DNA from: Saccharomycopsis phalli
Taxonomy: Eukaryota; Ascomycota; Saccharomycetes; Ascoideales; Saccharomycopsidaceae
Reading direction: 5' to 3'
DNA length: 64,000 nucleotides
Assembly (NCBI GenBank): GCA_020342235.1
Contig: CP073215.1
Span: 620,001 to 684,000 of the forward strand
Below the pieces are notes generated by a model. The model was not told the origin of the DNA. It ran no database searches and saw only the letters and a list, made by a program, of their open reading frames with translations. Positions 1,365 through 61,567 of the stretch are shown piece by piece. Made by a program: the position numbers and the translations under genes. Within the stretch, counting starts at the first letter, position 1. Each line of letters begins with the position of its first letter.

Positions 1365-2663
1365 TTATATCTGAGTCAATCTCACTTGCTCATCACCGGT
1401 AATTTCCTTCCCCCCGTTCTTGTCAAATATATACTCCATGGATAAATAACTCCATGTGAAATCTATCAAAATCGCACCAAGCCCCAATCCATAGACCAAA
1501 TTGATGGCATAAAAAAAGTTGGAGTTCCCGCTGCCGCTGAAGATCCACAAGTAGTAAAAAATCGGGCTGAGAATGATCGCATGAGTAATCAAAAGCACCA
1601 GAACAAGCGGATACTTCAAGAACGCGAGGATCTTCAAGTTGTTTTGGAACACAAGCACAAGCAAGAATTGGATAAAGAGAGCAAGATCGACAAGCGTCGG
1701 GTAAGCTTTTGTAAGGGTGAGGAACCCAAGGCAGAGCACAAGCGGGAATATCTTGTAACGGTTATTTGCTGGTAAGTTCAGGTACCGGGACCCTTGGAAC
1801 CGGATTGTAATGGGGAGGATGTATATCACGTGGTATATGTTGAAGACGCCAATGAAGAAGTTGCTGAAAAAGTCAAATACCTCGATAAAGAAGTACCACC
1901 AGAGGCCGATGTTGGGGCGGATTTTCGTAAAGAAGATGGTGGTTCCGTACGTGGACCAGAGAAAGTTCCAATTGGATCCATTGACCCAGTAACTTCCATA
2001 GACTAGGGCAGCCAAGGTTAGGAAGTATGTCAATAGTACCAGGGTTAATTTTGCCCTGTAATTGAGCACGTAGCCAATGAATGGCACCAAGAGAAACACA
2101 TTTGTGTAGTAGAGATATGTGCAAACTGCCAAGGAGCTGCTAGCTAGAATAGGGCTGTCGAGGAACACACCATTGAACAACACCGAAACTAGGAAAAAAT
2201 TGCTGATAAGCAGCGACGATTTCAGGAAAACCGCAAGAAAACCCACCGGGCTGAAAGCATAGAAGAACGCTAGAAGCCGAAGAAGCCGGTTTTTCGACTC
2301 GCCCGTGACCTGGTGGAGCGTGAGGAATTTGCCGCACACCGCCAACAACTGAAGACTGGCGAAAAAGTCAATGGCAATAAAAAAGAGATCCAGCACACAC
2401 TTCCAGGCGGCAGGAGAAGACGTCAAGCCTTTGAGCAACGAAAGAGCCAGCACCACCAAAGGAGGGTGGTACACCACTCCTCCTTCATAAGGGTCTATAT
2501 GATGGTTCCACAAGAAGATGCCCTCCTCTAGACTTTTCCACGAGCTCACCGGGGTAGAATATTCGGCAGATCCATCTAGGAACGTGTGGAAGTTCGGAAA
2601 TCCCACAAACACCGCGGCTTTGACCACACAAGAAAGTACCAAGACCTGGTTATAACTCGACAT
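1365..2663 (-). CDS. GAB1: GPI transamidase subunit Gab1/PIG-U
   Basis: Gab1 is a multi-pass ER membrane subunit of the GPI transamidase, which attaches preassembled GPI anchors to proteins. The 432-residue product has the PIG-U hallmark near its N-terminus: STPVSSWKSLEEGIFLW followed by DPYEGGVVYHPPLVV (about residues 36-69). Many hydrophobic segments follow throughout, as expected for this polytopic family. Length is close to that of fungal homologues (roughly 390-440). It is transcribed divergently from DOT5 across a promoter with five CACGTG sites. The start is the first Met and the family motif follows at the usual distance. Identity is by motif recognition, not alignment. Confidence 0.86.
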   Translation of the reverse strand: MSSYNQVLVLSCVVKAAVFVGFPNFHTFLDGSAEYSTPVSSWKSLEEGIFLWNHHIDPYEGGVVYHPPLVVLALSLLKGLTSSPAAWKCVLDLFFIAIDFFASLQLLAVCGKFLTLHQVTGESKNRLLRLLAFFYAFSPVGFLAVFLKSSLLISNFFLVSVLFNGVFLDSPILASSSLAVCTYLYYTNVFLLVPFIGYVLNYRAKLTLVLLTYFLTLAALVYGSYWVNGSNWNFLWSTYGTTIFFTKIRPNIGLWWYFFIEVFDFFSNFFIGVFNIYHVIYILPITIRFQGSRYLNLPANNRYKIFPLVLCLGFLTLTKAYPTLVDLALFIQFLLVLVFQNNLKILAFLKYPLVLVLLITHAIILSPIFYYLWIFSGSGNSNFFYAINLVYGLGLGAILIDFTWSYLSMEYIFDKNGGKEITGDEQVRLTQI

Positions 2664-3024: not shown

Positions 3025-3777
3025 ATGTCAACTGTAAGAAGATCATCACGAATTGCTGGAAAGAAACCGGGTTCCGAGGAAGTCCCTGCGGTCGAACACG
3101 TTTCCAAAAAGCCAAAGAAGCAGGCGGCTCAAAAAAAAGTCGACGATTCCGTAAATGGCGAGCTGGATAGCGTGGTTTTAGGGGTCGGCGACTTGATTCC
3201 TGACTTGGTTTTGAAAGATGAGAACGACAATGATGTCAATTTGCGGCAATTGACCAGCGAAAACGAAATTGTCGCGATTTTCGCCTACCCAAAGGCCTCT
3301 ACCCCTGGATGTACCAGGCAAGCTTGTGGCTATAGCAAGAATTATGACAATTTGTCCAAGTACGCCAAGTTGTTTGGCATTTCTGCTGACTCGCCAAAGG
3401 CGCAAAAGTCCTTTGTTGAGAAGCAGAACTTGAAACTCGACGGATTGTTGTCTGATCCGCATCGGGAATTGATTGGCGCGTTGGGAGCTAAAAAGTTGCC
3501 TACGGGGATTAAGAGGCTGCATTGGATCTTTGTCAATGGTCGTTTGCGGATTAGTCGGGTTCAAATCAGTCCTGAGGTGAGCATTGAGGATGGTAAGGAC
3601 GAGATTTTGAAGCTTCATGAGGAGTTGAAGGGGGAGAAGAAGGGGGAGAAGAAGGAGGAGGAAGAAAAGGAGGAAGAAAAGGAGGAAGAAAAAGAAGAGG
3701 AAAAGGATGAAAAGGATGAAAAGGATGAAAAGGATGAAAAGGATGAAAACTTGACCAAGGCAGAGGAAAAGGAGTAG
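3025..3777 (+). CDS. DOT5: Nuclear thiol peroxidase, peroxiredoxin Q/BCP type
   Basis: Dot5 reduces alkyl hydroperoxides with thioredoxin and is nuclear. The product is 250 residues. The N-terminus has the basic RRSSRIAGKK block that resembles Dot5 RRSTRIA, a likely nuclear signal. The peroxiredoxin fold follows at about residues 50-200, with the catalytic STPGCTRQACG motif (peroxidatic Cys96, resolving Cys101) and SADS and SDP motifs. After about residue 200 comes a 50-residue Lys/Glu/Asp tail built from KEE and KDE repeats that the S. cerevisiae protein lacks. I start at 3025 rather than the in-frame ATG at 2980, because 3025 gives the family-like N-terminus and 2980 adds an unrelated Cys-rich stretch. 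Confidence 0.9.
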   Translation: MSTVRRSSRIAGKKPGSEEVPAVEHVSKKPKKQAAQKKVDDSVNGELDSVVLGVGDLIPDLVLKDENDNDVNLRQLTSENEIVAIFAYPKASTPGCTRQACGYSKNYDNLSKYAKLFGISADSPKAQKSFVEKQNLKLDGLLSDPHRELIGALGAKKLPTGIKRLHWIFVNGRLRISRVQISPEVSIEDGKDEILKLHEELKGEKKGEKKEEEEKEEEKEEEKEEEKDEKDEKDEKDEKDENLTKAEEKE

Positions 3778-4848: not shown

Positions 4849-7800
4849 ATGAGTGATCCCTTCAATGAACTACTAAAGCCTGTATACAAAGGAAAAGAAT
4901 TGACCGACAAGATCGACACCGCCGAGGATAAATGGAACCTTCTTCCGGCTTTCCTCAAGGTCAAGGGGCTTGTGAAGCAGCATCTCGACTCGTTCAATTA
5001 TTTTGTCGACAAGGATCTCAAGAAGATTATAAATGCAAACCAAACAATTCTCAGTGACATTGTGCCAGACTTTTATCTCAAGTATACGGATATCCGGATT
5101 GGCCACAAAAGCAATGCGTCCAAGGGATCGCATATTGAGGTGAACTTGCCGCCGCACGAGTGCAGGCTTCGGGACATGACGTACCTGGCGCCTATTTACG
5201 TTGACATTGAGTACACGCGGGGCCGCAAGATCATCATGCACCGAGATTTGGAAATTGGACGCATGCCGGTGATGTTGCGTCTGAACAAGTGTATCTTGGA
5301 AGGCAAGTCCGACCTGGAGATGGCCGCGTTGAACGAGTGTCCGTTAGACCCGGGCGGGTACTTTATTGTCAATGGTACAGAAAAGGTGATTTTGGTGCAG
5401 GAACAATTGTCCAAAAACAGAATTATCGTCGAGAGCGATGAAAAAAAAAACATTGTGCAAGCGTCAGTAACGTCGTCGACGCACGAGCGCAAGAGTAAGA
5501 CGTACGTGGTGACAAAAAACGGCAAGATATACCTCAAACACAACTCCATCAGTGAGGAGGTGCCGATTGTAATCGCCCTCAAGGCCGCAGGCATCATCAG
5601 CGACTTGGAGATTTTGCAGTTGGTATGCGGCAACGACTCCAAATACCAGGACTTGTTTGCAATCAACTTTGAGGATGCCCTTCGCTTGAAAGTCTTGACC
5701 CAGAAGGAAGCGTTGTTGTACATTGGCGAAAAGGTGCGCACGATCCGGCGGTTTGGTGCGCCAAAGCACAGCAAGCTTGAGGAAGGCATTGAAGCTGTTG
5801 CCAACACAGTGGTGGCGCATATCACGTGTGACGACGGTAACGACCTCCGGAAAAAAGGCTTGTACATTGCCATGATGGCGCGTCGGGTGGTATCTGCAAT
5901 GCACGACTCGAAAATGGTGGACGACATTGACTATGTAGGAAACAAGCGGTTGGAGTTGGCTGGCCAGTTGATGTCGTTGTTGTTTGAGGACTTGTTCAAG
6001 AAGTTCAACAGCGACTTCAAGTTGAACATTGACAAGACGTTGAAGAAGCCGAACCGGGCGAATGAGTTTGACGCGCTTCTCACCATCAATGTGTACAGCT
6101 CGCATATCACAAACGGGTTGGCCAATGCGATTAGCACGGGTAACTGGTCGTTGAAGCGGTTCAAGATGGAGCGGGCCGGAGTGACGCATGTGTTATCGCG
6201 GTTGTCGTACATTTCTGCGCTTGGGATGATGACGCGGATCTCATCGCAGTTTGAAAAGTCGCGCAAGGTTTCGGGACCGCGTGCGTTGCAGCCGTCGCAG
6301 TTTGGCATGCTCTGCACGTCTGACACCCCCGAAGGTGAAGCATGCGGCTTGGTCAAGAACTTGGCGCTCATGACGCACATCACCACTGACGACGAGGAGC
6401 AGCCGATTGAGCGGTTGTGCTACAGCCTCGGGGTCGAGGACATTCGGTTTCTCGACTACACCGGAATCTTCACCGACCGGCGCAACTACTGCATCTTCCT
6501 CAACGGAACCGTCATTGGCACCACCAAGTTCCCGGCCAAGTTTTTGCACATGTTCCGGTACCTCCGGCGCACCGGAAAGGTGTCGCCGTTTGTGTCAATC
6601 TACTCCAACTCATACCACAAGGCGATCCAGATCGCCACCGACGGCGGCCGGATTTGTCGCCCGTTGATTATCGTCCAGGACCAGAATCCAAGAGTCACGG
6701 CCGAACATCTTGCCCGGTTGAAGACCGGCGAGTGGAACTTTGACGACTTTCTCCAGCACGGATTGGTCGAGTACCTCGACGTCAACGAAGAAAACGACTC
6801 CTTGATTGCCTTGTACGAGTCGGATATCGAGCCGGAAACCACCCACTTGGAAATCGAACCGTTCACCGTGCTCGGCGCCGTGGCCGGTTTAATTCCGTAC
6901 CCGCACCACAACCAGTCGCCAAGAAACACGTACCAATGTGCCATGGGAAAGCAGGCAATTGGCGCAATTGGATATAACCAGTTCCAGCGGATTGACACGT
7001 TGCTCTATTTGATGGTGTATCCGCAACAACCAATGGTAAAGACCAAAACCATTGAGTTGATTGACTACGACAAGCTTCCAGCCGGACAAAATGCAACCGT
7101 GGCGGTCATGTCGTATTCCGGGTACGATATTGAGGATGCGCTTGTACTCAACAAGGCGTCGCTCGACCGGGGGTTCGGCCGGTGTCAGACGCTCCGCAAA
7201 AATACCACGGTGTTGAAAAAGTATGCCAACCACACCAAGGACATTGTCAATGGGATGATGGTCGATTCTGCCACCGGCGAGCCGGTTCCGGGCCACGAGG
7301 CCCTCGGGCCGGACGGTCTTGGGGAGGTCGGAACTCGAGTGGCGAGTGGACAGGTGTACATAAACAAGTACATTCCGACCGACACCAACATGACCAACGC
7401 CAACCCGACTGCGCCGGTACAGGGTACGTCGTCCCACCGGGAGACCCCGGTATACTACCGGGCCCCAGAACCGAGTTACGTCGACCAGGTGATGATGTCG
7501 GTCGGCCTGAACGACCAGGCGCTCATCAAGGTGTTGCTTCGACAAACGCGTCGGCCGGAATTGGGCGACAAGTTCAGCTCGCGGCACGGGCAAAAGGGTG
7601 TCTGTGGCATCATTGTGAACCACGAGGACTTGCCGTTTAACGACATGGGGGTGTCGCCGGATATCATCATGAACCCGCACGGATTTCCGTCGCGGATGAC
7701 GGTGGGGAAGATGATTGAGCTCATTAGCGGCAAGGCGGGGGTGTTGAATGGCACGTTGGAGTACGGCACGTGCTTTGGAGGAAGCAAGCTCGAAGACATG

Positions 7801-8283
7801 TCTAAAATCTTGGTGGAAAACGGCTACAACTACTCAGGCAAGGATATGCTCTACAGCGGAATCACGGGGGAATGTCTTCAGGCATATATATTCTTTGGAC
7901 CGATTTACTACCAGAAGTTGAAGCACATGGTGATGGACAAGATGCACGCCCGGGCTCGTGGCCCGCGGGCAGTGCTTACCCGGCAACCGACCGAGGGTCG
8001 GTCACGTGATGGTGGATTACGGTTGGGGGAGATGGAGCGGGACTGTGTGATTGCTTATGGAGCTTCGCAGTTGTTATTGGAGCGGCTTATGCTCAGTTCG
8101 GATGCGTTTGATGTTGATGTTTGTAACCAGTGTGGGTTGATGGGATTTCATTCGTGGTGCAACAATTGCAAGAGTAGTGACAAGGTCATTGGCATGAAGA
8201 TTCCATATGCTGCGAAATTGTTGTTTCAGGAGTTGATTTCGATGAATATAGCTCCGAAATTGCGTCTTGGGGATGTGTTTTAG
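4849..8283 (+). CDS. RET1: RNA polymerase III second-largest subunit (Rpc128/C128)
   Basis: This subunit forms half of the active centre of RNA polymerase III, which makes tRNA and 5S rRNA. The 1144-residue product matches Ret1 along its whole length, including [50 protein letters not shown], the TPEGEACGL and [14 protein letters not shown] blocks, [12 protein letters not shown], and the C-terminal zinc ribbon [16 protein letters not shown] (about 1090-1106). Length is normal and there is no intron. Only four CTG codons occur (113, 145, 156, 887). At 145 the context MLR-X-NKC has Ser in the S. cerevisiae and human proteins, and at 113 (TY-X-AP) relatives have Ala or Ser, which supports CUG=Ser. 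Confidence 0.98.
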
Positions 8284-10306: not shown

Positions 10307-11017
10307 CTAAAAGCGATCGTCCTTGTAGTAGGAGCGGAAAAAGTCTCTGAGCCGGTTGAACTCGGTCTTTGCATTGTCCAAGCTGTTTTTCACGTAAAAC
10401 ACCCACAACTCGTCCGGGGTGCCGGGCTGGGCCACCAAGTGGCTCAAATACTGGCTGTGCTGCGCGTCAATTGCTTGAAAGTACGCATCGTTCTCCGGCA
10501 GAAGCACAAACCCATCGTAGTTGAGATAGTTGCCGTAGTTCTGGATGCGCTCGCAGTACTTTTGCAACGCATGGAACCCCAACGACAGCGCCAGACCCTT
10601 GATGTAGTGCCCCAACTCAGAGAGCCCCGCCAACTGGATTTTGATGTTGCGCGGGTTCTTGATCTTGTCCAACGTCTTGGCCTCGTTCAACTTCAACTCC
10701 TCCTGGATCTCCTTCAGAAAGTGGCCGTTGGAGGCGCTCGGCGGCTCCTGCGCCACATCTCCAAACTCATCAGGTACCTCAATCACGTCGGTGCGAGCAA
10801 TCTTGTTGGAGAACTTCGCATAGTCAATTCCGTCGGGCATGATTGCCGCCAACACGCGGTCGATTTTGGCAAACGTCTCGACGACCTGGTTGATGAAAGT
10901 GGACACGAGGTTCTGGGAAAACTCCGCGTTGTCCTCGTCCATTGAGATAATCTCATTGAGCACGCTCCAGTCTATTATATCCTGGTATTCCTTGTTTGTA
11001 TCGTTCATAGCTGCCAT
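10307..11017 (-). CDS. YPD1: Histidine-containing phosphotransfer protein Ypd1
   Basis: Ypd1 carries phosphate from the sensor kinase Sln1 to the response regulators Ssk1 and Skn7 in the osmotic stress phosphorelay. The 236-residue product has the Ypd1 start (IDWSVLNEIISMDEDNAEFS, residues 15-34) and the HPt core LSELGHYIKG with phospho-acceptor His137, followed by CERIQNYG. It is longer than the 167-residue S. cerevisiae protein because of a ~50-residue insert between the first helices and the HPt core (about 65-115). Two CTG codons directly follow the KG of the HPt core (142 and 144). The family consensus is KGSS or KGSA, so reading CTG as Ser restores the motif while Leu breaks it. A start at Met4 is also possible. 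Confidence 0.9.
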   Translation of the reverse strand: MAAMNDTNKEYQDIIDWSVLNEIISMDEDNAEFSQNLVSTFINQVVETFAKIDRVLAAIMPDGIDYAKFSNKIARTDVIEVPDEFGDVAQEPPSASNGHFLKEIQEELKLNEAKTLDKIKNPRNIKIQLAGLSELGHYIKGLALSLGFHALQKYCERIQNYGNYLNYDGFVLLPENDAYFQAIDAQHSQYLSHLVAQPGTPDELWVFYVKNSLDNAKTEFNRLRDFFRSYYKDDRF

Positions 11018-11298: not shown

Positions 11299-13590
11299 TC
11301 ATGCTCCCGCCTCATTTCTAAATCCCTGATAATACGCAACCATCTCCTCAGTAATCCCCGGCACAACTTGCGCAAGCCCGTGCTCAAAATCCGACCACGT
11401 GACGTCGCGTGCATTGCGATCCTCCATAATCGCATGTATACCGGCCTCCTGGCACACCAACACAACCTCGGCTCCGGAAAAACCCTCGGTGCGTCGCGCC
11501 AACTCATCAAGCATTTCGGGGTCCTCGAGATTGAAGCCACGCGTCCGGATCGCAAAGATTTGCCGGCGCGCGCCCTCGCCGGGCGGTCCAACATAAATGT
11601 GCCGGTCAAGGCGGCCAGGCCGGAGCAACGCCGGATCTATCGCATCCGGCTTGTTGGTTGCCGCCACTATAATCACGCCTTTTAATTCCTCCACCCCATC
11701 AATCTCGTTCAAAAGCGTAGTCAACACTGTGCTGTGCGCATTGTCGTCACCGCGACGCGTCCCGGCAATCGCGTCAATCTCATCGAAAAATACAATGCTT
11801 GGCGCCGCAGCACGCGCCTTGCGGAAAACTTCGCGTATCGTCCGCTCAGACTCTCCCAAGTACTTGTTGAATATCTCTGCGCCTTTCACCGCCAAAAAGT
11901 TCAAGCCGCTCTCGGTGGCTAGTGCCTTTGCCGTCAACGTCTTGCTGCATCCTGGCGGCCCGTACAAGAGAATGCCGCGCGGCGCCGCGACGCCAAGACG
12001 CGAAAACGCGTCAGGACACTCCAACGGCAACTGCACCATCTCCTTGATCTTGCGCTTCAACTCTTCCTGCCCGCCAATCTCGCGCCAGTACACTTTCGGC
12101 ATCTCGAGCAGCACCTCCTTCATCGCCGACGGCCTGATCTCGCTGAGCGACGCGTCCAAGTCGCTGGCCTGCAACACAAACACGCCCGTCGCGAGTCCGC
12201 GCCGGATGGTCTGCATCACCGCGCCGCGCACCAACGCGACCAAGTCCGCGCCCACGTACCCGTGAGTCTTGCTCGCGAGTCGAGCGGCCACGCCCTCGGA
12301 AATCGCGACCGATTCCATGCCACCAAGAATCTTGCCGAGGATGGCGAGCCGGGCGCGTTCCCCCGGAACGGGGATCTCAATCTCCCTGTCCAACCGGCCA
12401 GCCATCCGGAGACCTCGGTCAACGTGGCTCGGCCGATTCGTTGCAGCAATCACCAAGACGCGTCCGGAAATCTCTAAGTTGTCCATCTGGCCCATGAGCG
12501 TAGCCACAAGCCGGTTGCCGGTCAAGTCCGCGTCCTCGGTCAGGTCGCTCCGGCTCGGGAGCAACGCATCAATCTCGTCGAAAAATACGATACTCGGCTG
12601 GTACTGCCGCGCCTCGCGAAACACGTCCTCGACGCGCTGCTCCGCGTCGCCCAAGTACTTTGACACCACGCGCGCCATGTCGACCTTGATCACGTGTACC
12701 CGGTCAAAGTGCTCGTTGCGCACCGCGTCCAACAACATGGTCTTGCCGGTTCCGGGACCCCCGTATAACAAGATCCCGCGGCTCGGTTTGATGTTGAACC
12801 GCGTAAACAACCGAGGGTGCTGAAGCGGGATCTGGATCGCGTCCCTGAGCTGGCTGATTTCCGCGTCGAGGCCGCCCACCGACGCGAAACCCGGTAGCTG
12901 CGGCAAGTACGGGTGCCCTCGGTACATTTCCTGGCGCGCGGCCTCGGCCTCGGCCTCGGTCGCCATGGCCTCGACCGTGATCCGGGCGCGTTGCCGGTGG
13001 TACGCGAAATGCGGCGCCACAAGCGGCTGCTCGTCGTCCACCGCGTCGCCCTCGGAATCAAGCGCCAACTGCGCAATTCCGTCGGTAATCTCCTGGTCAC
13101 CGGGACCGGAAACCTGCAACACCCGCACCTCCAATCCCTCCACCTCCACCTCAAGACCGGCCATTATTACGCCAATTTCCAGCAAAATTTTGCCAACTTT
13201 TGCCTCAAACTTGTCATCAAACGAGCCGCCGCTCACTCCAAGCTTCACGGACTCGCACTCTGGTAAAACCGAATTGTACCGCTCTAAAGACACACTGGTC
13301 CCCAAATGGAACCCACCAACTCGCCGAAAACCGGTGGCCATTTGTACAATTTCCAGTGGCTTTTGGCCAACTGCGACGGTTCCAACGACGCCTCTCAATC
13401 CCTGGGTGCTCACAAACACCAAATCGCCGACCTTGGCGCCCAAAGCTTGAGGAATTTGTTCGCCGACATAGACTTTAGCCGCGGCTTTTGGTGAGCCGGA
13501 AATCGGCCGGACTAGGAACTTTTTCGGCGCCTTTGGTGCCTTGACTTTTTCCGGCTCAGGAGCATTTGGAGACTTTTTTTTGATGACCAT
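11299..13590 (-). CDS. AFG2: AAA-ATPase Afg2/Drg1, 60S ribosome maturation
   Basis: Afg2 is a hexameric type II AAA+ ATPase that strips Rlp24 from cytoplasmic pre-60S particles. The 763-residue protein has a Lys/Pro-rich start, an N-domain to about residue 230, and two ATPase modules. D1 has Walker A GGPGTGKT and Walker B VFFDEIDALLPSRS. D2 has GPPGCSKT, the Cys-Ser form typical of Afg2/SPATA5, and VFFDEIDAIAGTRRG. The linker SAMKEVLLEMPKVYWREIGG and the second-region string HIYVGPPGEGAR are also family-specific. Length matches the S. cerevisiae protein (780). Base composition here is GC-rich compared with the window. It is divergent from the gene at 13815 across a CACGTG-rich promoter. Confidence 0.96.
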   Translation of the reverse strand: MVIKKKSPNAPEPEKVKAPKAPKKFLVRPISGSPKAAAKVYVGEQIPQALGAKVGDLVFVSTQGLRGVVGTVAVGQKPLEIVQMATGFRRVGGFHLGTSVSLERYNSVLPECESVKLGVSGGSFDDKFEAKVGKILLEIGVIMAGLEVEVEGLEVRVLQVSGPGDQEITDGIAQLALDSEGDAVDDEQPLVAPHFAYHRQRARITVEAMATEAEAEAARQEMYRGHPYLPQLPGFASVGGLDAEISQLRDAIQIPLQHPRLFTRFNIKPSRGILLYGGPGTGKTMLLDAVRNEHFDRVHVIKVDMARVVSKYLGDAEQRVEDVFREARQYQPSIVFFDEIDALLPSRSDLTEDADLTGNRLVATLMGQMDNLEISGRVLVIAATNRPSHVDRGLRMAGRLDREIEIPVPGERARLAILGKILGGMESVAISEGVAARLASKTHGYVGADLVALVRGAVMQTIRRGLATGVFVLQASDLDASLSEIRPSAMKEVLLEMPKVYWREIGGQEELKRKIKEMVQLPLECPDAFSRLGVAAPRGILLYGPPGCSKTLTAKALATESGLNFLAVKGAEIFNKYLGESERTIREVFRKARAAAPSIVFFDEIDAIAGTRRGDDNAHSTVLTTLLNEIDGVEELKGVIIVAATNKPDAIDPALLRPGRLDRHIYVGPPGEGARRQIFAIRTRGFNLEDPEMLDELARRTEGFSGAEVVLVCQEAGIHAIMEDRNARDVTWSDFEHGLAQVVPGITEEMVAYYQGFRNEAGA

Positions 13591-13814: not shown

Positions 13815-14660
13815 ATGTCATATCGTCTGATATTGACCGCTTGTGGTTCAAAAAACAGCGTATTTCGCACTGTCCAGCTTGTAGAGTCGTCTTTCCAGCA
13901 GCCAGTTGGGCTACGCTTCATTCTTCGCGAGAAGAGCCTTGGAAAACAAGCAAAAGTCGAAACCTATCTAGGCCGGCTCAAACGGTTTCTAGGAAAGTCT
14001 TATCAACTAAAAAACGAGCATTTAGTGGCAACCACCCGCACATATGACTCACAGGTGCTCATTGGCCTGCAAAAGTACTCCATGAGCCAATTGACGAGGT
14101 TTGGTCGGGAATTGTACCGGATTGTTGTCATGGAGTATCTTGCAGGGTTTCAACCAGTGAGCCGGAGATACAAATTCATGGATCCGGTTTACTATAAATT
14201 AAAAGACTTGAGCCGGATTGGAGGACTCGATTTTGAAAAGCTAGAGGAGGCACCAAAGTGGACAAACCGGGGGCTCATCAACAAGTTTATGAAAAAAAAT
14301 GGGTTGGATTATTCGGTAAATGTGACCAGTGTGCTTTTGCAAAGCCCCATTTACAAGAAAATACGGTTTCCCTCTGCTCGTGAGAAGTTGAAGGTTAAAT
14401 GGGGGCTTCGGAGCGTACCAAAAGGCAAAGTGAGGCGTCATTTGATGAGTAAACTGAGGTACGAGATGGTTAAGCGGAAGTCGTTGAGCAAAGCGCGGTA
14501 TATTCGTAATTTGGATACGTTTTACTGGTTGATTGCCATGATCCGAATCGAGTATGGGGTAGATGCAGCTCGAAAGTATATCGAGGAGCAGGTCTTGACG
14601 CTGAAGAGGGGGATTTTGATGTTGCGGACCTCAGAAAGGGTACGCTGGGATTGGAAATAG
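13815..14660 (+). CDS. Basic protein, possibly RNase III-like mitochondrial ribosomal protein
   Basis: The 281-residue product is strongly basic. Its start (MSYRLILTACGSKNSVFRTV) lacks acidic residues and looks like a mitochondrial targeting sequence. A block resembling the RNase III helices is visible: SQLTRFGRELYRIVVMEYL (about 95-115), and near the C-terminus a run like AMIRIEYGVDAARKYIEEQV. This is reminiscent of the catalytically dead RNase III-like large-subunit proteins mL44/mL57, but I see no acidic catalytic signature and cannot name the gene securely. The start at 13815 is preceded by an overlapping out-of-frame ATG at 13811 (ATGAATG), so initiation must be at the second ATG or be leaky. 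Confidence 0.55.
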   Translation: MSYRLILTACGSKNSVFRTVQLVESSFQQPVGLRFILREKSLGKQAKVETYLGRLKRFLGKSYQLKNEHLVATTRTYDSQVLIGLQKYSMSQLTRFGRELYRIVVMEYLAGFQPVSRRYKFMDPVYYKLKDLSRIGGLDFEKLEEAPKWTNRGLINKFMKKNGLDYSVNVTSVLLQSPIYKKIRFPSAREKLKVKWGLRSVPKGKVRRHLMSKLRYEMVKRKSLSKARYIRNLDTFYWLIAMIRIEYGVDAARKYIEEQVLTLKRGILMLRTSERVRWDWK

Positions 14661-25896: not shown

Positions 25897-25991
25897 GGAG
25901 GAAGAATGTAGTGGGATAATATGAATAGTAGTGATGCATAATGGTGCATGCAACCAGGCCGATGAGATATTTTTTTTTTTCGTGCAAAGCA
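25897..25991. promoter_or_regulatory. Compact divergent promoter of CIA2 and NAF1
   Basis: Only 95 bp separate the start codons. A 13-base T run at about 25967-25979, which would disfavour nucleosomes, is the main visible feature. Confidence 0.55.
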
Positions 25992-28061
25992 ATGGAGGTT
26001 GATACAGCTAAACAGGAAAAGGAGAAGGCTGAGTCTAGATTTGGGGAGATGGAAACGAATAATGCGGAGAAGGAGTGCGAGAATATGGAAGTGGATATAG
26101 CAGGTGTGGATGGAGAGGGTACAAAAGTGGATGTCAAGGTGGATGCCAAGGTGGAGAATAATCAAGAGGAAAGTATGAAAAGTTGTATAGAGAATAATCA
26201 AGAGGATCAGGAGAATAACATGGAGGTTGAATATAATTTGGAGACTAAAGATAATTTGGAGGTTGAAGATAATCTGCAAACTGCAAACAAAACTATTCAC
26301 AGATCTGAACCAGAAGCTCAAAAGATGGATCAAACCAGCAATACGCCTCAGCCTGTTGCAAAAAAGCAATCAACTCGTATGAAGCTGGAAAGAAAGGAAA
26401 TTGCAAGTCTCATTGATAAATTGGACCAAGACCAAGAGATGGACAAGTACTCGTCAGATGAGGAGCCGTTGAATAGTGAAGAAAGGGAGGAAAAGGGGGA
26501 AGATAAAGAGGAAAAGGAGAAAGAAAGGGAGGAAAAGGAAAAAGAAAAAGAACAAGAAAAAGAAGAAAAGGAAAATGTGAAAAATAACAATACTGATCAA
26601 GATCAATCAAGTGAAAGCGATAGTGATAGTGATAGTGATAGTGATAGCGATAGTGAAGACGGCTCCAGTGATGAAGTCGCTGAAAATTTCGACGCCAACG
26701 ACGAGGATGAAACCGCCGACGAACCAATTAAGTCCAAAAACGAACAGGACGAAGTCGCCCCGCTTCTTCCTCCTGATTACAAGATCGATGAAAATGCTGC
26801 AATTGAATTCATTGGCGAAATCCACGTCTCCAGTGAAGGTTCATTAATCGTCAAGGCACATAATTCGGCCGAGTACAGAGTCTTGAAAGAAAATTTTGTC
26901 TTGTGCTTCGCAGACAGACAACCAATTGGCATCGTCTGTGAAGTTTTTGGCCCACTCAAGTGTCCATATTATCGCGTGAGAATTGCACCAGACTCTAATC
27001 ACGAGTATGCAAAAGGCACTCATGTCTACTATGTGGTTCGAGGAGCCGAATTCGAGCTCACTGAGCGGATAAAAGCTTTCAGAGGGTGCGATGCCAGTAA
27101 CGGAAATGACGAAGAAGTTGCGGAAAACGAGTTGGAATTCAGTGATGATGCAGCAGAGGCCGAGCATAAAAAGAGCAGAAAGCGCAAGCGCAAGAGAAAG
27201 CAGGATGAGGAAAGCAGCAAGAAGCCGGGACAAACAAGTTCTGTAAAGGCTAAGCCGTACATGGAAACTTATGGACAAAAAGAGAGAAGCACTCTGGAAT
27301 ATGTTCCTATAAGTTCCAACACAGGAGAGAATCAAGGGTATCAAAGAAACCTGGGACAGACTCAAAACCATAAAAACCAGTCGGGTTATAATCAGGGCCA
27401 CGGGTATCAAAATTACAACTCGTCCCAAGGATATCAAAGCCAGGGATACAAACTGCAGAATTTTAACCAAGGGTATAGCCAAGGGCAATATTCTAGTCAA
27501 ACTTCGTATAATACGCAGTTTAGCCAAGGGCAATCTAACCAAGGTCAGCCTAATCAAGGGCAGTTTAACCAGAGTCAGTTTAACCAGAGCCAGTTTAACC
27601 AAGGCCAATTTAACCAAGGCCAATTTAACCAAGGTCAATATAACCAAGGTCAGTTTAATCAGAACCAGTTTAACCAAAGCCAATATAACCAAGGCCAATT
27701 TAGTCAAAACCAATTTAGTCAAAACCAATTTAGCCAGAACCAATTCAATCAGAACCAATTTAACCAGAACCAATTTAACCAGAATCAATTTAACCAGAAT
27801 CAATTTAACCAAAACCAGCTTAATCAAAACCAGCTTAATCAAAACCAGCTTAATCAAAACCAGCTTAATCAAAACCAGCTTAATCAAAACCAACCCAGCC
27901 AAAACCAATATAACCAATTAAATGGGCAGAACCAACAGTACCAGTCTCAAATTCAGGCCCAACTAAGTCAATTGCCTCCTGATCAAGTTAACCAATTGGC
28001 AAGCATAGTTCAAGCAGCTATTCAATTCAAGAATTCGCAAAATGGCCAAAATGGTCAATGA
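25992..28061 (+). CDS. NAF1: H/ACA snoRNP assembly factor Naf1 with long Q/N-rich tail
   Basis: Naf1 holds Cbf5 during early H/ACA snoRNP assembly and is later replaced by Gar1. The 689-residue product starts MEVDTAKQ. It has a Glu/Lys-rich N-terminal part with a Ser/Asp run (about 205-220), then the Gar1/Naf1 core (about 255-355) with FIGEIHVSSEGSLIVKA, RQPIGIVCEVFGPLKCPYY and GTHVYYVV. A basic KKSRKRKRKRK stretch follows, likely nuclear targeting. The last ~240 residues are a prion-like Q/N tract built from pentapeptides FNQNQ, FNQGQ and LNQNQ, about 35 units, encoded by near-identical 15-bp repeats. The upstream in-frame ATG at 25941 overlaps the CIA2 side and gives an unlikely start. Confidence 0.9.
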   Translation: MEVDTAKQEKEKAESRFGEMETNNAEKECENMEVDIAGVDGEGTKVDVKVDAKVENNQEESMKSCIENNQEDQENNMEVEYNLETKDNLEVEDNLQTANKTIHRSEPEAQKMDQTSNTPQPVAKKQSTRMKLERKEIASLIDKLDQDQEMDKYSSDEEPLNSEEREEKGEDKEEKEKEREEKEKEKEQEKEEKENVKNNNTDQDQSSESDSDSDSDSDSDSEDGSSDEVAENFDANDEDETADEPIKSKNEQDEVAPLLPPDYKIDENAAIEFIGEIHVSSEGSLIVKAHNSAEYRVLKENFVLCFADRQPIGIVCEVFGPLKCPYYRVRIAPDSNHEYAKGTHVYYVVRGAEFELTERIKAFRGCDASNGNDEEVAENELEFSDDAAEAEHKKSRKRKRKRKQDEESSKKPGQTSSVKAKPYMETYGQKERSTLEYVPISSNTGENQGYQRNLGQTQNHKNQSGYNQGHGYQNYNSSQGYQSQGYKLQNFNQGYSQGQYSSQTSYNTQFSQGQSNQGQPNQGQFNQSQFNQSQFNQGQFNQGQFNQGQYNQGQFNQNQFNQSQYNQGQFSQNQFSQNQFSQNQFNQNQFNQNQFNQNQFNQNQFNQNQLNQNQLNQNQLNQNQLNQNQLNQNQPSQNQYNQLNGQNQQYQSQIQAQLSQLPPDQVNQLASIVQAAIQFKNSQNGQNGQ

Positions 28062-28651: not shown

Positions 28652-29845
28652 CTAGTGTCCGGTACCAATAACTAACCTCTTACCAGGAGGGGTAATTAAT
28701 GCTCTTACAGAGCTTCCAGCTGGAACTGACTCGGCTATTCCAATCCGAGAATTTTCAATATCATAAAAGACGTATGCGGCCCTCATAAATGGGACACCTA
28801 GGGATATTTCCGGATCTTGTGTAAAGACAATGTCAAACAGGCACTGCGCTTTTGGATCCGTGTATGATTCGCTTACCAACATATCAGGCAGCACAATGAT
28901 GGAAAGTTTACCAAAGATAAACTCCAAATTGCCAATTCCACTTCCGTCACAGGTACTATATGTGCGCTCATTTACTATACTTATACTAAAATACTTTTTG
29001 TACTCATCGGGTAGAAAAATCGCTGTGGCTCCGCTATCAATGACAATGTCAACGGAAGGAATGATTTTTTTTCTAGTCCGACCAAGTCTCATCGCAGTAA
29101 TAGGTATTTCCAAGAAACCTAGTTCGTGATTGGTACCAGGAATAATCACCAAGGGCCCACGGAACCGGTTTGTATCTACTCCTCCAAACACAATCTGCCC
29201 ACTGGATCTGCCTCTCAACAGGTTCATGTGAATTCCATACATCTGTCGTTTTATGTAATTTGAGTCTTGGAGCAACTGGAGCAATCCTGGTTCTGTAATG
29301 TGAGAGCCTTGTGGACCTAAGCCTATGTTACCATATAGACTACCCGTCTTGGATGCAACGCCAAATGGAGCATTATTCAATATAGCTGATTCAAAGACTA
29401 TTTCGTCGACATAATATAGTCCTGTAGTGATGGTACCGTCTAAAAATTTCTGACGAAAATCCTTGCCAGGTACCTTTCTTGCAGAGGACGTCATTGTATC
29501 AAGCATGTATCTTGTGACCGGATAATTAATCAGACGACTATTGTCAATATACTTTCTCTTCGAAGACAGGAGGATGTCTTTCAAGGTCCCTTGTTTGGGG
29601 AACCACGTCAAACTTGATCCCGTATCGTACACGACACTTAAGATCTGTTTACCAACCTGAATTCTTGTTTCTGGCCTGTTTGACCTATTGTCAAAATAGT
29701 CAATCACATAGCCAATTCTATCACCAATTATTTGGCCAGATGCGCTTAGTCTTTGGGGAGCTCGCTTTTCAATTGAGTTACTTTGCGGATTCAATGATGC
29801 CGAGAAGACATGGCCAAGGGCAATGAAGTAAACTAAAAGTTGCAT
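28652..29845 (-). CDS. Secreted aspartic protease, copy 1
   Basis: This is an A1-family (pepsin-like) protease of the candidapepsin/yapsin type. The 397-residue protein has a signal peptide (about 1-17), a very short propeptide ending in the Kex2-type site EKR at 28, and the two catalytic triplets DTG (Asp74, in VVYDTGSSLTWF) and DSG (about Asp270, in VIDSGATAIFLP). The late STCDGSGIGNLEF and DPEISLGVPFMRAAYV blocks are typical of the C-lobe. There is no hydrophobic GPI-signal tail; it ends LVIGTGH, so secretion into the medium is likely. It is the closest relative of the broken copy at 31185 and belongs to a five-member cluster. Confidence 0.93.
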   Translation of the reverse strand: MQLLVYFIALGHVFSASLNPQSNSIEKRAPQRLSASGQIIGDRIGYVIDYFDNRSNRPETRIQVGKQILSVVYDTGSSLTWFPKQGTLKDILLSSKRKYIDNSRLINYPVTRYMLDTMTSSARKVPGKDFRQKFLDGTITTGLYYVDEIVFESAILNNAPFGVASKTGSLYGNIGLGPQGSHITEPGLLQLLQDSNYIKRQMYGIHMNLLRGRSSGQIVFGGVDTNRFRGPLVIIPGTNHELGFLEIPITAMRLGRTRKKIIPSVDIVIDSGATAIFLPDEYKKYFSISIVNERTYSTCDGSGIGNLEFIFGKLSIIVLPDMLVSESYTDPKAQCLFDIVFTQDPEISLGVPFMRAAYVFYDIENSRIGIAESVPAGSSVRALITPPGKRLVIGTGH

Positions 29846-31184: not shown

Positions 31185-32408
31185 TCAATCAATATGATTG
31201 TCCCTATCTTCCTTAGCCTTGCGTCCAATACCAATAACTACATTCCTACCAGAAGGGGTAATTATTGCTTTCACAGAGCTTCCAGCTGGAACTGACTCGG
31301 CTATTCCAATCCGAGAAGTTAAATTATCATAAAAGACGTATGCGGCCCTCATAAATGGGACGCCTAACGATATTTCCGGATCCGATGAAAAGGAAATGTC
31401 AAAGAGGCAGTGTGCTTTAGGATCCGTGTATGATTCGCTTACCAACATATCAGGCAGCACAATGATGGAAAGTTTACCAAAGATAAACTCCAAATTGCCA
31501 ATTCCACTTCCGTCACAGGTACTATATGTGTACTCGTTATGTGTACTTACTTTAAAATGCTTTTTGTACTCATTGGGTAGATAAATATCCGTGGCTCCGC
31601 TATCAATGATAACGTTAACGGAAGGAATGATTTCTTGTCTAGTCCGATCAAGTCTTATCGCAGTAATTGGTATTTCCAAGAAACCATCTGGGTTACTGAC
31701 AGCAGGAGTCATCCCCAAGGGCCCACGGAACCGGTTTGTATCTACTCCTCCAAATACGATCTGCCCACTGGATCTGCCTCTCCAGAGGTTCATGTGGATT
31801 CCAAATATTTGCCGTTTTATATATTTTGATTCATAGAGCAACTCGACAAATCCTGGTTGCAAACTTTGGGGCTTTTGTCCCAAGCCTATGATACTATACA
31901 GATAGCTAGTCTCGGATGCGACGCCAAATGGAACATTTCTCAATACAGCCGATTCAAAGACTATTCTATCTTGATAAAACAGACCCAGGGCGCTGGTACC
32001 GTCTAAATAGCCCTGATGAAACCCATCACCAGGTAATTGTATTGCAGAGGACTTCTCTACATCAAACATGAATCTTGTGACCGGATAGTCAATCAGACGA
32101 CTATTGTCAATATACTTTCTCTTCGAAGGCAGGAGGATGTCTTTCATGGTTCCTGGTCTCGAAAATCACGTCACACTTGATCCCGTATCGTAAATGGCAC
32201 TTAAGATCTGATTACCAATCTGAATTCTTGTTTCTGGCCTGTTTGACTTATTGTCAAAATAGTCAATCACATAACCAATTTTATCACCAATTATTTGGCC
32301 AGATGCGCTTAGTCTTTGGGGAGCTCGCTTTTCAATTGAGTTACTTTGCGGATTCAATGATGCCGAGAAGACATGGCCAAGGGCAATGAAGTAAACTAAC
32401 AATTGCAT
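31185..32408 (-). pseudogene. Secreted aspartic protease, copy 2, one in-frame stop
   Basis: It matches copy 1 over its full length, with the same signal peptide, EKR processing site and both catalytic triplets (DTG then DSG in IIDSGATDIYLP). The Trp codon right after DTGSSVT is TGA (32166-32168), where copies 1, 3 and 5 have TGG. The reading frame is otherwise open from 32408 to 31185. A lone nonsense change in an intact frame suggests very recent loss, a sequencing error, or polymorphism. Its high similarity to copy 1, flanks included, points to a recent tandem duplication. Confidence 0.88.
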
Positions 32409-36408: not shown

Positions 36409-36446
36409 GGTTTTCTTCAACAGTGAAAATATAGTTGTTGAATAAA

Positions 36447-36794
36447 TGTCGTAGTTAATAGTATCGCCTGGAATAGACATAGTATTATGTGAACTATAAA
36501 CTACTTAATTATTTGTTTTGTTCCTTTAGTATTTGGATAACCGGATTGGGCTTTGCTAGATATAATATCTAGCTGAACTGTTCAGTTGAATTGTGTGTTC
36601 TCTATAAGAAGGAAGCCCTTCTTATATAGACTACTCTGGATCTCTTATCAGATCTTTATCCTCCAATAATATCTTATCAAAAACATCATTGGTTGGATTA
36701 CTTTAGTCTAATCAAAACCGGGAGTCGGTAAAGATATTACCGACACCGATGTTGCACTAGTGAACTTGTTCTGCAGTGGTTCTCAACCACGACA
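36447..36794 (-). repeat. 3' LTR of the copia element
   Basis: The ends are TGTCGTAGTT and AACCACGACA as read on the plus strand. With the solo LTR at 36061-36408 it forms an inverted repeat with a 38-bp spacer. Confidence 0.92.
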
Positions 36795-37383
36795 TGCCCT
36801 CTTCTTTTTGAAAAGTAATCGATTGATCAGAAAGATTATTTTCCAAGAAGAAATGTATATCCTATGACGTAAGTTATCCGACGGGGAGGAACTCTCCAAG
36901 AGACTTCCCATAGTAATTGTAACGTCCAATAAACTATGGTTCGAGTGGGACTTTTACCGCACCGAAAAACCCGTGCATTTTCGCGCTATCAGTTCCTAGG
37001 GCTGTCTTCGCGAGAGACATTTTTTGTTCCTTAAACTGGTTGCGAATGATGTCCTCTGTGTTTACCATTCACAGTGTAATTCAGACATCTGGTTGAGTGA
37101 TTCTGATCTTATCTTACAGGTGGACTCGCCGCAAGTAAGCTCTTGACAACAGAGATAGCACAGCCCATGTGACTCAGGAGTTGAAGGATCCATTGTCGAA
37201 CCGACTATCTTTGCTATCTGATGGTTTGTCCCGACCCGAAAGCTTCGTTTGGTACAGCCATCAAGACCTTCCTCGTACTCTGGAGTGTCGTATTGAGTGA
37301 CTCCCATATTCGTCATCGTCTTGTGCACTAACAATAACGAATATGTACATTGTGGGTTGATTAAGTCCACTTGATTTGAGTAT

Positions 37384-40300: not shown

Positions 40301-40746
40301 TTAATATAAAGCATTCCTCTTGAAGTCCGTAACAACGGGGTAGAATTTCCGTTATATGAGATATGGGGATTTCTTAATACCTGAACATCGATCCCTTGTA
40401 TGTCAGCAATATCATTTAGGGAAAGGATTGAAATGTCTTGCCCCACATCTTCTTTCTTCATGTAATAACCCTTGACTGTAATGTGTAAATCTCCTATAGG
40501 AATCTTGATGTTGCCTGGTCCGGTAGCTTTGAAGCCTCCGTACCCTAGTGGTTGACAATCAATAACTTCATCCTTAAGGTCTGTGAACAAGTCCAACTTC
40601 GTACTTAAAGTAGCCTGCGCTCCTGTATCCAACAACATGACCGAAGTGCCTAAGTCTTCCAATTCTTTCTCTCCTATCCTGTATTTAAAGACCCAGTTGG
40701 CACCGTCTTTATTTACGAGGCCTCCTGTTTGACTTATCCTTAGCAT
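37384..40746 (-). other. pol region of the copia fossil
   Basis: The reading frame is long (about 1120 codons). Recognisable parts, in order, are an aspartic protease motif (MLLDTGAQATLS), the zinc-binding HHCC head and DDE core of the integrase, the reverse transcriptase with YVDD, and an RNase H-like end. It is treated as part of a broken element. Confidence 0.9.
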
Positions 40747-42988: not shown

Positions 42989-45772
42989 CTAGTTTGCTTG
43001 ATTTATAGTTTCATCCAACACACCCATCGGCTCATCATTCCACCCTTTTATAGCCTCAATTGCTGTATCTGTCACTTCCTTTGGAATCCCAGCCAATCTT
43101 GCAATAGATACTGCATGCGAATATTCGCTGATTCCTGGCCGAAGTCTGTGGTCAAAAAACCGACCATTGAATATAGGGCCGGTCAACTTCTGTCCATCAT
43201 ACGTCTCGAGATACTTTTCTAGATACTCGTGACAAAGACTGGTATGGAAATAGCACACATTGTCGTTGGTCCCAAGGAGTTTACTCAACTCTGGTGCATA
43301 ATGGGTAGCAAACAAGAACCGGGAGCGTACATGGGATATCATGTACTTCAAAATCCCATAGGCAATAGCTATGCCTTCCTTGTTGGAAGTGCCTCTTCCG
43401 ATTTCGTCAAAAATAATGAGCGAATGTGATGTGGCATGTGTCAATGCGTTGCATGCTTCTGCCATCTCCACCATAAACGTGCTACTATGGTTTGAAATAT
43501 CATCAGCTGAGCCAATCCGCGTGAATATCTTGTCAACAATACCGATATTTGCCTTTTCTGCAGGCACAAAGCTGCCAATCTGCGCAAGAATCACCATCAA
43601 GGCATTCTGTCTAAGGTAGGTACTCTTGCCACCCATATTGGGCCCAGAAATAATCAGGCCAAAAGTGGACTTGTCAAGTGTGCAATTGTTTCCTTGGAAT
43701 TCAACAGAGTTTGCTTCTAAGCTGGTCTCAACCACTAAATGACGCCCGTTGACGATTTTCAACTGCGGCTTGTCGCTCAAGACAGGACACACGAGATTAT
43801 GATCCTTGGCAAGCCCAGCAAACGATTGGAGCACGTCTACATAATCTATGGATTCACTGGTGGCTTTTATAGTGTCAAAGTGAGCAATGGTCAATTTTCG
43901 AAGCTCGTTCAACACCTTCATCTCCAGGGCCTTTATGCATGAAGCAGTCTTACCAATCTTGGTAGCCAAGCTCTGCCACTCGCGATTTATGAAATGGCAA
44001 GAGGTCTTGGACTGCTTGTAAATTGTGGTAATATCAAATTCCAGCAACTGTGACACGTCAAACTTGCTGCCATACTGGGCATATATCGATGGGATATCGT
44101 TGTCAATACGCATCAGAAGCGACTTCATGCCTAATTTCTCACATAGAGCCTGGTTCTTTTGCTCCAAGATATGTTTTTCTGCCAATAACTTCTCCAAAGA
44201 CTTGTGGTGCCGCTCCAATTCCTGGTTTGCAGTCCTGTTGATAATCCAAGACATGTCAGGCAAGTTTTTATCTTGCTCCAGAGTCTCGCTGAGCCTTTGC
44301 AAGCCGTCTATATCAATCAACTTGTCAATGCGCTCGACTAACTCAAACGGCACAGAGATCTTCCCCGGAAAATTGACGGCCGTATCCTGTAACAACTTTC
44401 TGATTTTCTCGTAGCTAGCCAAGATTTTCATCAAGTTAACGTAGTTTGTGGCCAAGCTGATGTTGTCGCTGCTCACAATCGTGTTATTGTATCCGATCTC
44501 AAACAACAATCGCATACAGTCAATGCCTGCCAGTTCCTTGAGATGATACACAAGCATGGTCAAGTGTTCCTTGTATTCCTTTGCAGAAAACCGCTTCACC
44601 AAGCGTAGCCGTTTCCGAGACTCTTTGAGATCGTACGGCGGCGAATCGAGCCAATTAGAGAGCATACGGGTCCCAGAAACCGTCTGGGTGCGTCGAATAG
44701 TCGAGAAGAGCGTGTTTTTCCTGCTGCGCGTCCTCATAGTCTCGGTGATTTCTAGTGCTTCACGCGCAGCTGCATCGATCATCATCACGTTCTTGGACAG
44801 TCGCTTCACGCTGAAACTAAACAAATTCTCGGCACCCAACTCAAAGTGCTGCTGAATATATCCCAACAACACCTGGCTGGCACTTTGTTCGGTCGTGGAA
44901 AGCTGTCTCAATTTGGCGACACTCTTGCTACTGAGTATGCTGGTATGGTCGCTGCTTGAGGGCTGGGGCCAGGTGACTTTGAATCCCTGGAGCAAGAAAC
45001 TGGGCTCTAGAATCTTCTGAAACTGCTCAGGAACAATCACTTCCGTCGGCTTGATGCGGAAAAGGTCGTTTCGTATGTTGGAAAGCCGAGATTCTTGGAC
45101 ATAAAACTCCATGGTAGAGATATCGCACCACGCAAGACCTACAGTCAGGTCGCGAAACATTGTCATTTTCGGAAGAAAAACCAGGAGCAAAAAGTTGTTT
45201 TGCTCAATTGCCAAGATATCCTTCTCAATGATCGTTCCTGGAGTGATTATCCGATGAACTCGTCGAGAAAACCGCTTCACGTTATCATCCCCAACCTCAA
45301 GATACTGCTTCACAAGCACCACGTCGATCCCCAAATGATTTACAAGAATATCAACGTACTTAAGACAGTTTTGTGTCGGGAACCCAGCCATGGCCACTTT
45401 CCCATTCAGATACTGTTTTTTAGCCACTCGGAGATTCAATGGTGGACCGTACTTTTCGGCATGCTCAAAGTACAATTCGTAGAATTTCCCCATTTCGGTT
45501 AGAACAGCCTTCTCAGGATGCTGATCAATGAGCCGGCGGATCTCTTTCAATGCCGGTGGACAACTTTCAGCGTCCCATTTGCTTGCCGGTACTAATCCTA
45601 CCTTTGGCGTAACAATTGGCGGAAGATCATCCAATTTAACGGTAGTCTTTATAGATGCCGCCCTGGGACTGCTATTGACAGCATATCGTCGCAAAAATAC
45701 CTGACCAAGGCTCCTTGGAAGGTACCTGATCATTGAATATTCAGTGGCTCTTGGCCCAGTGGAGTGGTACAT
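42989..45772 (-). CDS. MSH1: Mitochondrial MutS homologue Msh1
   Basis: Msh1 maintains the mitochondrial genome through mismatch binding. The 927-residue protein has an Arg-rich, acid-poor start (MIRYLPRSLGQVFLRRYAVN from Met14) that fits mitochondrial import. The mismatch-wedge motif Phe-Tyr-Glu is at 97-99 in EMGKFYELYF, and the ATPase has Walker A GPNMGGKSTYLRQ (about 710), NHSSTFMVEM and Walker B LIIFDEIGRGTSNKEG. Length is close to the S. cerevisiae 959. Starts at Met1 and at Met14 (45733) are both plausible; Met14 gives the cleaner presequence. CTG codons here (for example at 43655-43657, just before the Walker A motif) sit at positions that tolerate several residues. Confidence 0.95.
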   Translation of the reverse strand: MYHSTGPRATEYSMIRYLPRSLGQVFLRRYAVNSSPRAASIKTTVKLDDLPPIVTPKVGLVPASKWDAESCPPALKEIRRLIDQHPEKAVLTEMGKFYELYFEHAEKYGPPLNLRVAKKQYLNGKVAMAGFPTQNCLKYVDILVNHLGIDVVLVKQYLEVGDDNVKRFSRRVHRIITPGTIIEKDILAIEQNNFLLLVFLPKMTMFRDLTVGLAWCDISTMEFYVQESRLSNIRNDLFRIKPTEVIVPEQFQKILEPSFLLQGFKVTWPQPSSSDHTSILSSKSVAKLRQLSTTEQSASQVLLGYIQQHFELGAENLFSFSVKRLSKNVMMIDAAAREALEITETMRTRSRKNTLFSTIRRTQTVSGTRMLSNWLDSPPYDLKESRKRLRLVKRFSAKEYKEHLTMLVYHLKELAGIDCMRLLFEIGYNNTIVSSDNISLATNYVNLMKILASYEKIRKLLQDTAVNFPGKISVPFELVERIDKLIDIDGLQRLSETLEQDKNLPDMSWIINRTANQELERHHKSLEKLLAEKHILEQKNQALCEKLGMKSLLMRIDNDIPSIYAQYGSKFDVSQLLEFDITTIYKQSKTSCHFINREWQSLATKIGKTASCIKALEMKVLNELRKLTIAHFDTIKATSESIDYVDVLQSFAGLAKDHNLVCPVLSDKPQLKIVNGRHLVVETSLEANSVEFQGNNCTLDKSTFGLIISGPNMGGKSTYLRQNALMVILAQIGSFVPAEKANIGIVDKIFTRIGSADDISNHSSTFMVEMAEACNALTHATSHSLIIFDEIGRGTSNKEGIAIAYGILKYMISHVRSRFLFATHYAPELSKLLGTNDNVCYFHTSLCHEYLEKYLETYDGQKLTGPIFNGRFFDHRLRPGISEYSHAVSIARLAGIPKEVTDTAIEAIKGWNDEPMGVLDETINQAN

Positions 45773-58686: not shown

Positions 58687-58787
58687 CGTCACAGACAGGA
58701 TTCGAACCTGCGCAGGTAAAACCCAATGCCTATCAGCTAAGTTTGAACTATAGCAGGGCATCGCCTTAACCACTCGGCCACTGTAAC
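58687..58787 (-). tRNA. tRNA-Ser(GCU) with a 19-nt intron
   Basis: The gene reads GTTACAGTGGCCGAGTGGTT at its 5' end and has the long variable arm of serine tRNAs and the B box GGTTCGAATCC. The acceptor stem GTTACAG pairs with CTGTGAC, with discriminator G. The anticodon GCT follows ATGCCCT. The intron at 58732-58750 begins one base 3' of the anticodon and contains AGC, which can pair with the anticodon, as in the yeast orthologue. Mature length is 82 nt. Solo LTR1 begins 99 bp upstream. Confidence 0.95.
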
Positions 58788-61494: not shown

Positions 61495-61567
61495 TGGACG
61501 AGTTGGGAATCGAACCCAAGACCTCTCCCATGCTAAGGGAGCGCGCTACCAACTACGCCACACGCCC
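61495..61567 (-). tRNA. tRNA-Ala(AGC)
   Basis: The sequence GGGCGTGTGGCGTAGTTGGT at the 5' end and CTCCCTTAGCATGGGAG in the anticodon arm match yeast tRNA-Ala almost exactly. The G3:U70 identity pair of alanine tRNAs is present. There is no intron and the length is 73 nt. Confidence 0.97.

Follow-up and report, generated by a model that had tools for sequence, protein, structure and literature searches.

A 64-kb stretch of budding-yeast DNA in which CUG is most probably read as serine

Introduction

The RET1 gene in the stretch of DNA analysed here (64,000 nucleotides, hereafter the window) carries a CTG codon at a position where its relatives have Ser, and this raises the question of which amino acid the codon encodes. 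An earlier note, made from the sequence alone, had claimed that CTG is very rare in this DNA and that it is read as serine and not as leucine, with the caution that alanine is hard to exclude at RET1 codons 113 and 156. In this work we have analyzed the CTG codons of the window by codon counting, by alignment to homologous proteins and by a search for tRNA genes. In our judgement, with a probability of about 0.9, the window would be nuclear DNA of a budding yeast that reads CUG as Ser (NCBI table 12) and that probably belongs to the CUG-Ser1 clade. This finding is correct and ordinary; CUG reassignment itself has long been known.

Results and Discussion

CTG codon usage

The rarity of CTG was confirmed, since only 85 CTG were counted among the 10,908 codons of 25 ORFs of the window, the retroelement and aspartyl-protease ORFs included, and the ADE12, RPT3 and Xaa-Pro peptidase ORFs contain none. 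In ten genes that we ourselves chose as conserved (5,300 codons in total), CTG occurs 27 times and TTG 274 times. In these same genes CTG represents 27 of the 218 CTN codons, whereas GTG represents 176 of the 366 GTN codons (binomial p = 3e-29). Among the eight four-fold boxes, counted over the 25 ORFs, CTN has the smallest proportion of G-ending codons (0.158), followed by Gly (0.206).

The base composition varies along the window: the G+C content is 0.50 at 4-8 kb and falls to 0.38-0.43 in the 4-kb bins past 28 kb. GC3 reaches 0.71-0.78 in RET1, YPD1 and AFG2, against 0.35-0.42 in the ORFs of the proteases and the retroelement.

CTG codons at serine positions of conserved proteins

Ten proteins, translated with X at CTG, were compared with the sequences of solved structures, and up to five printed alignments were read per protein; for RET1, 80 such sequences matched. 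The PDB chains are named below by the species that we take them to come from (S. cerevisiae, human). For the archaeal columns of RET1 the best 80 of 566 relatives were used. The sites discussed are the following:

4849-8283, plus strand: RET1 gene, 1144 aa, with CTG at codons 113, 145, 156 and 887
5185..5187, plus strand: RET1 codon 113, CTG in a TY-X-AP context; S. cerevisiae and human both have Ser, archaea mostly Ala (56/80) and less often Ser (16/80)
5281..5283, plus strand: RET1 codon 145, CTG in an MLR-X context; Ser in the five PDB alignments shown and in 80/80 archaeal loci
5314..5316, plus strand: RET1 codon 156, CTG; opposite Ser in S. cerevisiae and Ala in human; in archaea mostly Glu (56/80), then Gln (15/80)
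7507..7509, plus strand: RET1 codon 887, CTG; S. cerevisiae Asp, human Ala; archaeal column variable
10592..10594, minus strand: YPD1 codon 142, CTG in the HPt motif H-x-x-K-G-X; opposite the Ser of HFLKGS in S. cerevisiae Ypd1
10586..10588, minus strand: YPD1 codon 144, CTG; Ala in S. cerevisiae Ypd1
3517..3519, plus strand: DOT5 peroxiredoxin codon 165, CTG; Ser in DOT5 chain 2a4v, context IRSHFIF
2223..2225, minus strand: GAB1/PIG-U codon 147, CTG; Ser in GAB1 chain 9ub7, Ala in PIG-U chain 7w72
2040..2042, minus strand: GAB1/PIG-U codon 208, CTG; Ser in GAB1 chain 9ub7
1599..1601, minus strand: GAB1/PIG-U codon 355, CTG; Ser in GAB1 chain 9ub7

The CTG coordinates that the earlier note had named in RET1, YPD1 and MSH1 are all correct, and its descriptions of three key sites hold. 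Thus, RET1 145 lies in the Ser-bearing MLRS context, with Ser in every alignment read; RET1 113 lies in TY-X-AP, where relatives have Ala or Ser (four Ser and one Ala in the five PDB alignments shown); and YPD1 142 faces the Ser of the HPt motif. A Leu at CTG would be expected to break RET1 145. The archaeal column of RET1 887 is mixed, Ser being the commonest residue (17/80) and Leu appearing in 3/80. To the sites listed in the note we can add four that face Ser, i.e., DOT5 165 and GAB1 147, 208 and 355, and one that faces Ala, YPD1 144.

The remaining CTG codons of these proteins face a variety of residues in the chain alignments. GAB1 72 is opposite Phe, and GAB1 91 and 151 are opposite Ile, while AFG2 79, 137 and 494 are opposite Val, Asp and Phe, respectively. 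A HAD phosphatase contains two CTG codons, which are opposite Thr and Ala in pseudouridine-5'-phosphatase; the three alignments shown to more remote proteins have other residues there, none of them Leu. The DOT5-like peroxiredoxin also has a Glu/Lys-rich tail encoded by tandem repeats (3627-3749).

Likelihood of the possible assignments

The 21 CTG codons of RET1, AFG2, YPD1, GAB1 and DOT5 include 17 that pair with an S. cerevisiae residue, and these residues are Ser at eight sites, Asp, Phe and Ile at two each, and Val, Ala and Thr at one each, with Leu at none. In the same alignments the other Leu codons face Leu at 170 of 253 sites, a proportion very different from the 0/17 of CTG (Fisher p = 1.8e-8). 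The proportion of Ser at CTG (8/17) does not differ from that at Ser codons (71/136; Fisher 0.8), and it exceeds those at Leu codons (1/253; Fisher 3e-10) and at Ala codons (27/168; Fisher 0.005). CTG occupies conserved serine positions, as in table 12, at 8 of the 17 sites, RET1 145 being Ser also in 80/80 archaeal loci; an alanine position, as in a CUG-Ala code, at one (1/17, against 77/168 for the Ala codons; Fisher 0.0013); and a leucine position, as in the standard code, at none in the comparison with S. cerevisiae. The opposite is found for MSH1 616 and 706 when they are compared with prokaryotic MutS.

The log10 likelihoods relative to Ser were -1.3 for Ala and -14.0 for Leu with empirical counts taken from the present alignments, and -2.7 for Thr, -2.9 for Ala and -6.0 for Leu with BLOSUM62, while a four-class multinomial placed Ser over Ala by log10 3.6. 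When calibrated with each codon's own counts left out, this recipe named correctly 54/54 other codons with at least 10 sites; an earlier run that included MutS had named 58/59, missing CGA. In trials with subsamples of up to 17 sites, 93-100% of the answers were right for each Leu, Ala or Ser codon shown other than AGC (48%). Thus, the claim that CTG encodes Ser and not Leu is sustained, Ser being the best assignment by both the empirical and the BLOSUM62 likelihoods and Leu being rejected.

A 13-site subset considered confident was also analyzed, but it was chosen by eye after the residues had been seen, and we prefer the all-site result. When RET1 113, RET1 145 and YPD1 142 are removed from this subset (10 sites left), Leu is still rejected (-7.6 empirical, -3.8 BLOSUM62), and Ser is ahead of Ala by 1.7 with BLOSUM62, but Ala and Ser tie empirically. 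In an earlier run without DOT5 and these three sites (13 left), Ala was even ahead of Ser by 0.5 log10 empirically. The choice of Ser over Ala therefore depends largely on these three sites, and the caution about Ala was justified, since over all sites the likelihood margin is just 10^1.3 to 10^2.9.

Comparison with prokaryotic homologues

Four CTG codons were considered in particular in MSH1 and AFG2:

43655..43657, minus strand: MSH1 codon 706, CTG, against Ser; Leu in the MutS alignments shown; Leu 27/36, Ala 7/36 MutS loci
43925..43927, minus strand: MSH1 codon 616, CTG, against Ser; Leu in the MutS alignments shown; Leu 29/32 MutS loci
44531-44533, minus strand: MSH1 codon 414, CTG; mixed column in MutS loci
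12109..12111, minus strand: AFG2 codon 494, CTG, against Ser; S. cerevisiae Phe; archaea Phe 9, Leu 8, Tyr 5 of 28

The MutS columns come from the 36 loci that were retrieved, including three haloarchaeal genomes identified by name, one of these also by class. The earlier note had mentioned MSH1 706 and 414 as sites that would tolerate or even favour Leu: the first one stands, the column of the second one is mixed, and MSH1 616, which was unlisted, is to be added. MSH1 616 and 706 are the strongest counter-evidence to Ser, but the prokaryotic MutS proteins are only remotely comparable to a fungal mitochondrial MSH1. Among the other MSH1 sites, 498 faces Leu in 11/27 MutS loci, 197 faces Ala in 21/34, and 122 faces His in 21 and Ser in 7 of 33, the five remaining columns, that of 414 among them, being mixed. 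The six sites aligned to E. coli MutS (S, A, K, E, L, L) do not tell the assignments apart. AFG2 494 falls in a hydrophobic column, and AFG2 350 is opposite Val in 25/29 archaeal relatives; like MSH1 498, these two sites speak against Ser.

A Codetta-like sum over prokaryotic profiles (16 sites) placed Ser first; its lead over Ala, Val and Leu was 0.1, 1.5 and 1.8 log10, respectively. In its calibration 56/59 other codons were correct; TCA and TCC were called Ala, and thus the tie between Ser and Ala carries little weight.

tRNA genes and codon neighbourhood

Two tRNA genes were found, and neither of them reads CUG:

58687..58787, minus strand: tRNA-Ser(GCU) with a 19-nt intron; Rfam RF00005, 47.9 bits; anticodon gct by ARAGORN with introns
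61495..61567, minus strand: tRNA-Ala(AGC); ARAGORN and Rfam

A tRNA with a CAG anticodon was not found in the 64-kb window, either with Rfam at the gathering score or with ARAGORN allowing introns of 0-200. The tRNA-Ser(GCU) gene is overlooked by ARAGORN without the intron option.

The residues that neighbour all 85 CTG codons were scored by naive Bayes. By its Ser-minus-Leu score CTG is nearest to the Leu codons (1.7 sd), then to the Ala codons (2.3 sd) and farthest from the Ser codons (3.2 sd), with the Ser and Leu classes themselves just ~1.5 sd apart. In a gene-matched hydropathy version, CTG is nearest to Ala (0.4 sd), followed by Ser (1.3 sd) and Leu (2.3 sd). We have treated these tests as uninformative, though neither favours Ser.

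Aspartyl proteases

The window contains five candidapepsin-like aspartyl-protease genes or remnants, all on the minus strand:

28652-29845, minus strand: aspartyl protease
31185-32147, minus strand: aspartyl protease, without the N-terminal part
33809-34999, minus strand: aspartyl protease
41338-42537, minus strand: aspartyl protease
54761-55954, minus strand: aspartyl protease, split across two ORFs
29219..29221, minus strand: CTG at codon 209 of the aspartyl protease SAPa; each of the five alignments shown, all to aspartic proteinases and three of them to proteins named candidapepsin, has Ser here

The Pfam Asp family was tested on the first copy, and the other four were assigned by alignment to it; the best E is 6.3e-22. 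The other four CTG codons of SAPa were left out of the counts: by eye, the residues opposite 319 and 336 are neither Ser nor Leu, and 93 and 105 are poorly aligned. When the protease paralogues are compared, another copy carries a Leu codon at 5/13 CTG columns and a Ser codon at two, one column having both, and the codons exchanged with CTG include CTA, CTC and TTG. We have discounted this lean to Leu because a single base separates 7 of these 8 Leu codons from CTG and because one of the copies is truncated.

Alternative readings of CUG

The reading of CUG as Ala, which is known from Pachysolen, Nakazawaea and Peterozyma and would require a tRNA-Ala with its anticodon changed to CAG, is unlikely, although it is the least improbable of the alternatives. 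Ala codons do face Ser fairly often (27/168), Ala predominates among the archaea at RET1 113 (56/80) and among the MutS loci at MSH1 197 (21/34), YPD1 144 faces Ala, the prokaryotic profiles leave Ala just 0.1 log10 behind, and without RET1 113, RET1 145 and YPD1 142 the empirical comparison ends in a tie, or with Ala 0.5 ahead in the earlier run. However, CTG faces Ala far less often than the Ala codons do (1/17 versus 77/168, Fisher 0.0013), Ser is ahead in the three all-site comparisons (log10 1.3, 2.9 and 3.6), RET1 145 is Ser in 80/80 archaea, and none of the 18 RET1 columns that are Ser in at least 80% of archaeal loci carries Ala in the present RET1. A truly ambiguous CUG, mostly Ser but Leu often enough for MSH1 616 and 706 to persist, a state resembling the one reported for Ascoidea asiatica, seems to us very improbable. 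Even less probability is given to an explanation built on the mix of Ser-like sites (RET1, YPD1, GAB1 and DOT5) and Leu-like sites (MSH1 498, 616 and 706, and AFG2 494), because Leu appears at 0/17 of the S. cerevisiae-aligned sites, the Leu-like sites depend on distant prokaryotic homologues and, according to a survey of recoded yeasts (PMC5951914), CUGs in such clades lie mainly at less conserved sites. The standard code, in which CUG would be Leu and CTG merely disfavoured, can hardly be sustained: MSH1 616 and 706 opposite Leu and the protease exchanges with CTA, CTC and TTG speak for it, but against it are the absence of Leu at the 17 sites compared with 170/253 for other Leu codons (p 1.8e-8), a likelihood deficit of 10^6 to 10^14, and RET1 145, which Leu would break.

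Relationship to known CUG reassignments

The preferred reading, CUG as Ser, has well-known precedents. The study of Krassowski et al. (2018; PMC5951914) describes three CUG reassignments in yeasts, Ser1, Ser2 and Ala. It derives the Ser1 tRNA from a UCN-reading tRNA-Ser and the Ser2 tRNA-Ser(CAG) from tRNA-Ser(GCU), with tRNA-Leu(CAG) kept in 4/5 Ser2 species. It reports that CUGs are relatively rare in the recoded clades and tend to lie at poorly conserved sites, and that the CUG-Ser2 clade itself has few CUGs in conserved genes. Shulgina and Eddy (2021; PMC8629427) report that about 8-34 aligned columns, depending on the codon, give >95% power, and leave CUG without a call in Babjeviella and Cephaloascus, which are basal in the Ser clade. 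The same Ser/Leu test at conserved CUG positions is used by Muhlhausen and Kollmar (2014; PMC4986446) and in the Bagheera paper (PMC4050208). What is seen here, a number of clear Ser sites next to many that say little, agrees with these descriptions.

Like the CUG-Ser1 yeasts (Candida albicans, Debaryomyces and relatives; table 12), the window has CUG at conserved Ser positions, rare CUG codons, no CUG at the Leu positions of the S. cerevisiae comparison (though MSH1 616 and 706 face Leu in most MutS loci) and candidapepsin-like aspartyl proteases, and no clear difference from them was seen among its sequence features. In the CUG-Ser1 clade the tRNA-Ser(CAG) usually carries G37, and a tRNA-Leu(CAG) gene is expected to be lacking. 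The CUG-Ser2 clade (Ascoidea, Saccharomycopsis) shares with the window the probable reading of CUG as Ser. The CUG-Ala clade (Pachysolen, Nakazawaea, Peterozyma) resembles the window in that CUG is rare and reassigned to a small residue, but differs in that the CTG sites here face Ser at 8 and Ala at 1 of 17. We favour the Ser1 clade because CTG is not extremely rare (27/5,300; 85/10,908) and because of the candidapepsin-like proteases; these are weak cues, and the placement is a guess.

Following the literature, a tRNA-Ser with a CAG anticodon, encoded elsewhere in the genome and charged mainly with serine, would read CUG. The tRNA-Leu(CAG) would have been lost, the ancestral Leu CUGs would have been swapped for other Leu codons, and today's CUGs would have arisen later, mostly at tolerant sites.

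In practical terms, the record should use table 12, otherwise RET1, YPD1, DOT5 and GAB1 get wrong residues at conserved sites. Knowing whether CUG stands for Ser or Ala would also be of use in assigning the yeast to a clade.

Other features of the window

A copia-type retroelement lies within 36446-41241, and its ORF (37384-40746) contains RVT_2 above the Pfam cut-off, with rve, RVT_1 and SH3_retrovirus below theirs. This ORF is flanked by direct repeats, of 142 nt at 99% and of 93 nt at 85%, that fall within 36446-36794 and 40895-41241 and are consistent with LTRs. No PDB chain matched the retroelement ORF at E <=0.01, and the ORF at 13815-14660 had a single match, with E 0.92, so that neither informs on the code. 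Finally, the NAF1-like ORF at 25941-28061 contains about 20 tandem 15-bp units at 27519-27917, which form a C-terminal repeat of the FNQ(G/N)Q type.
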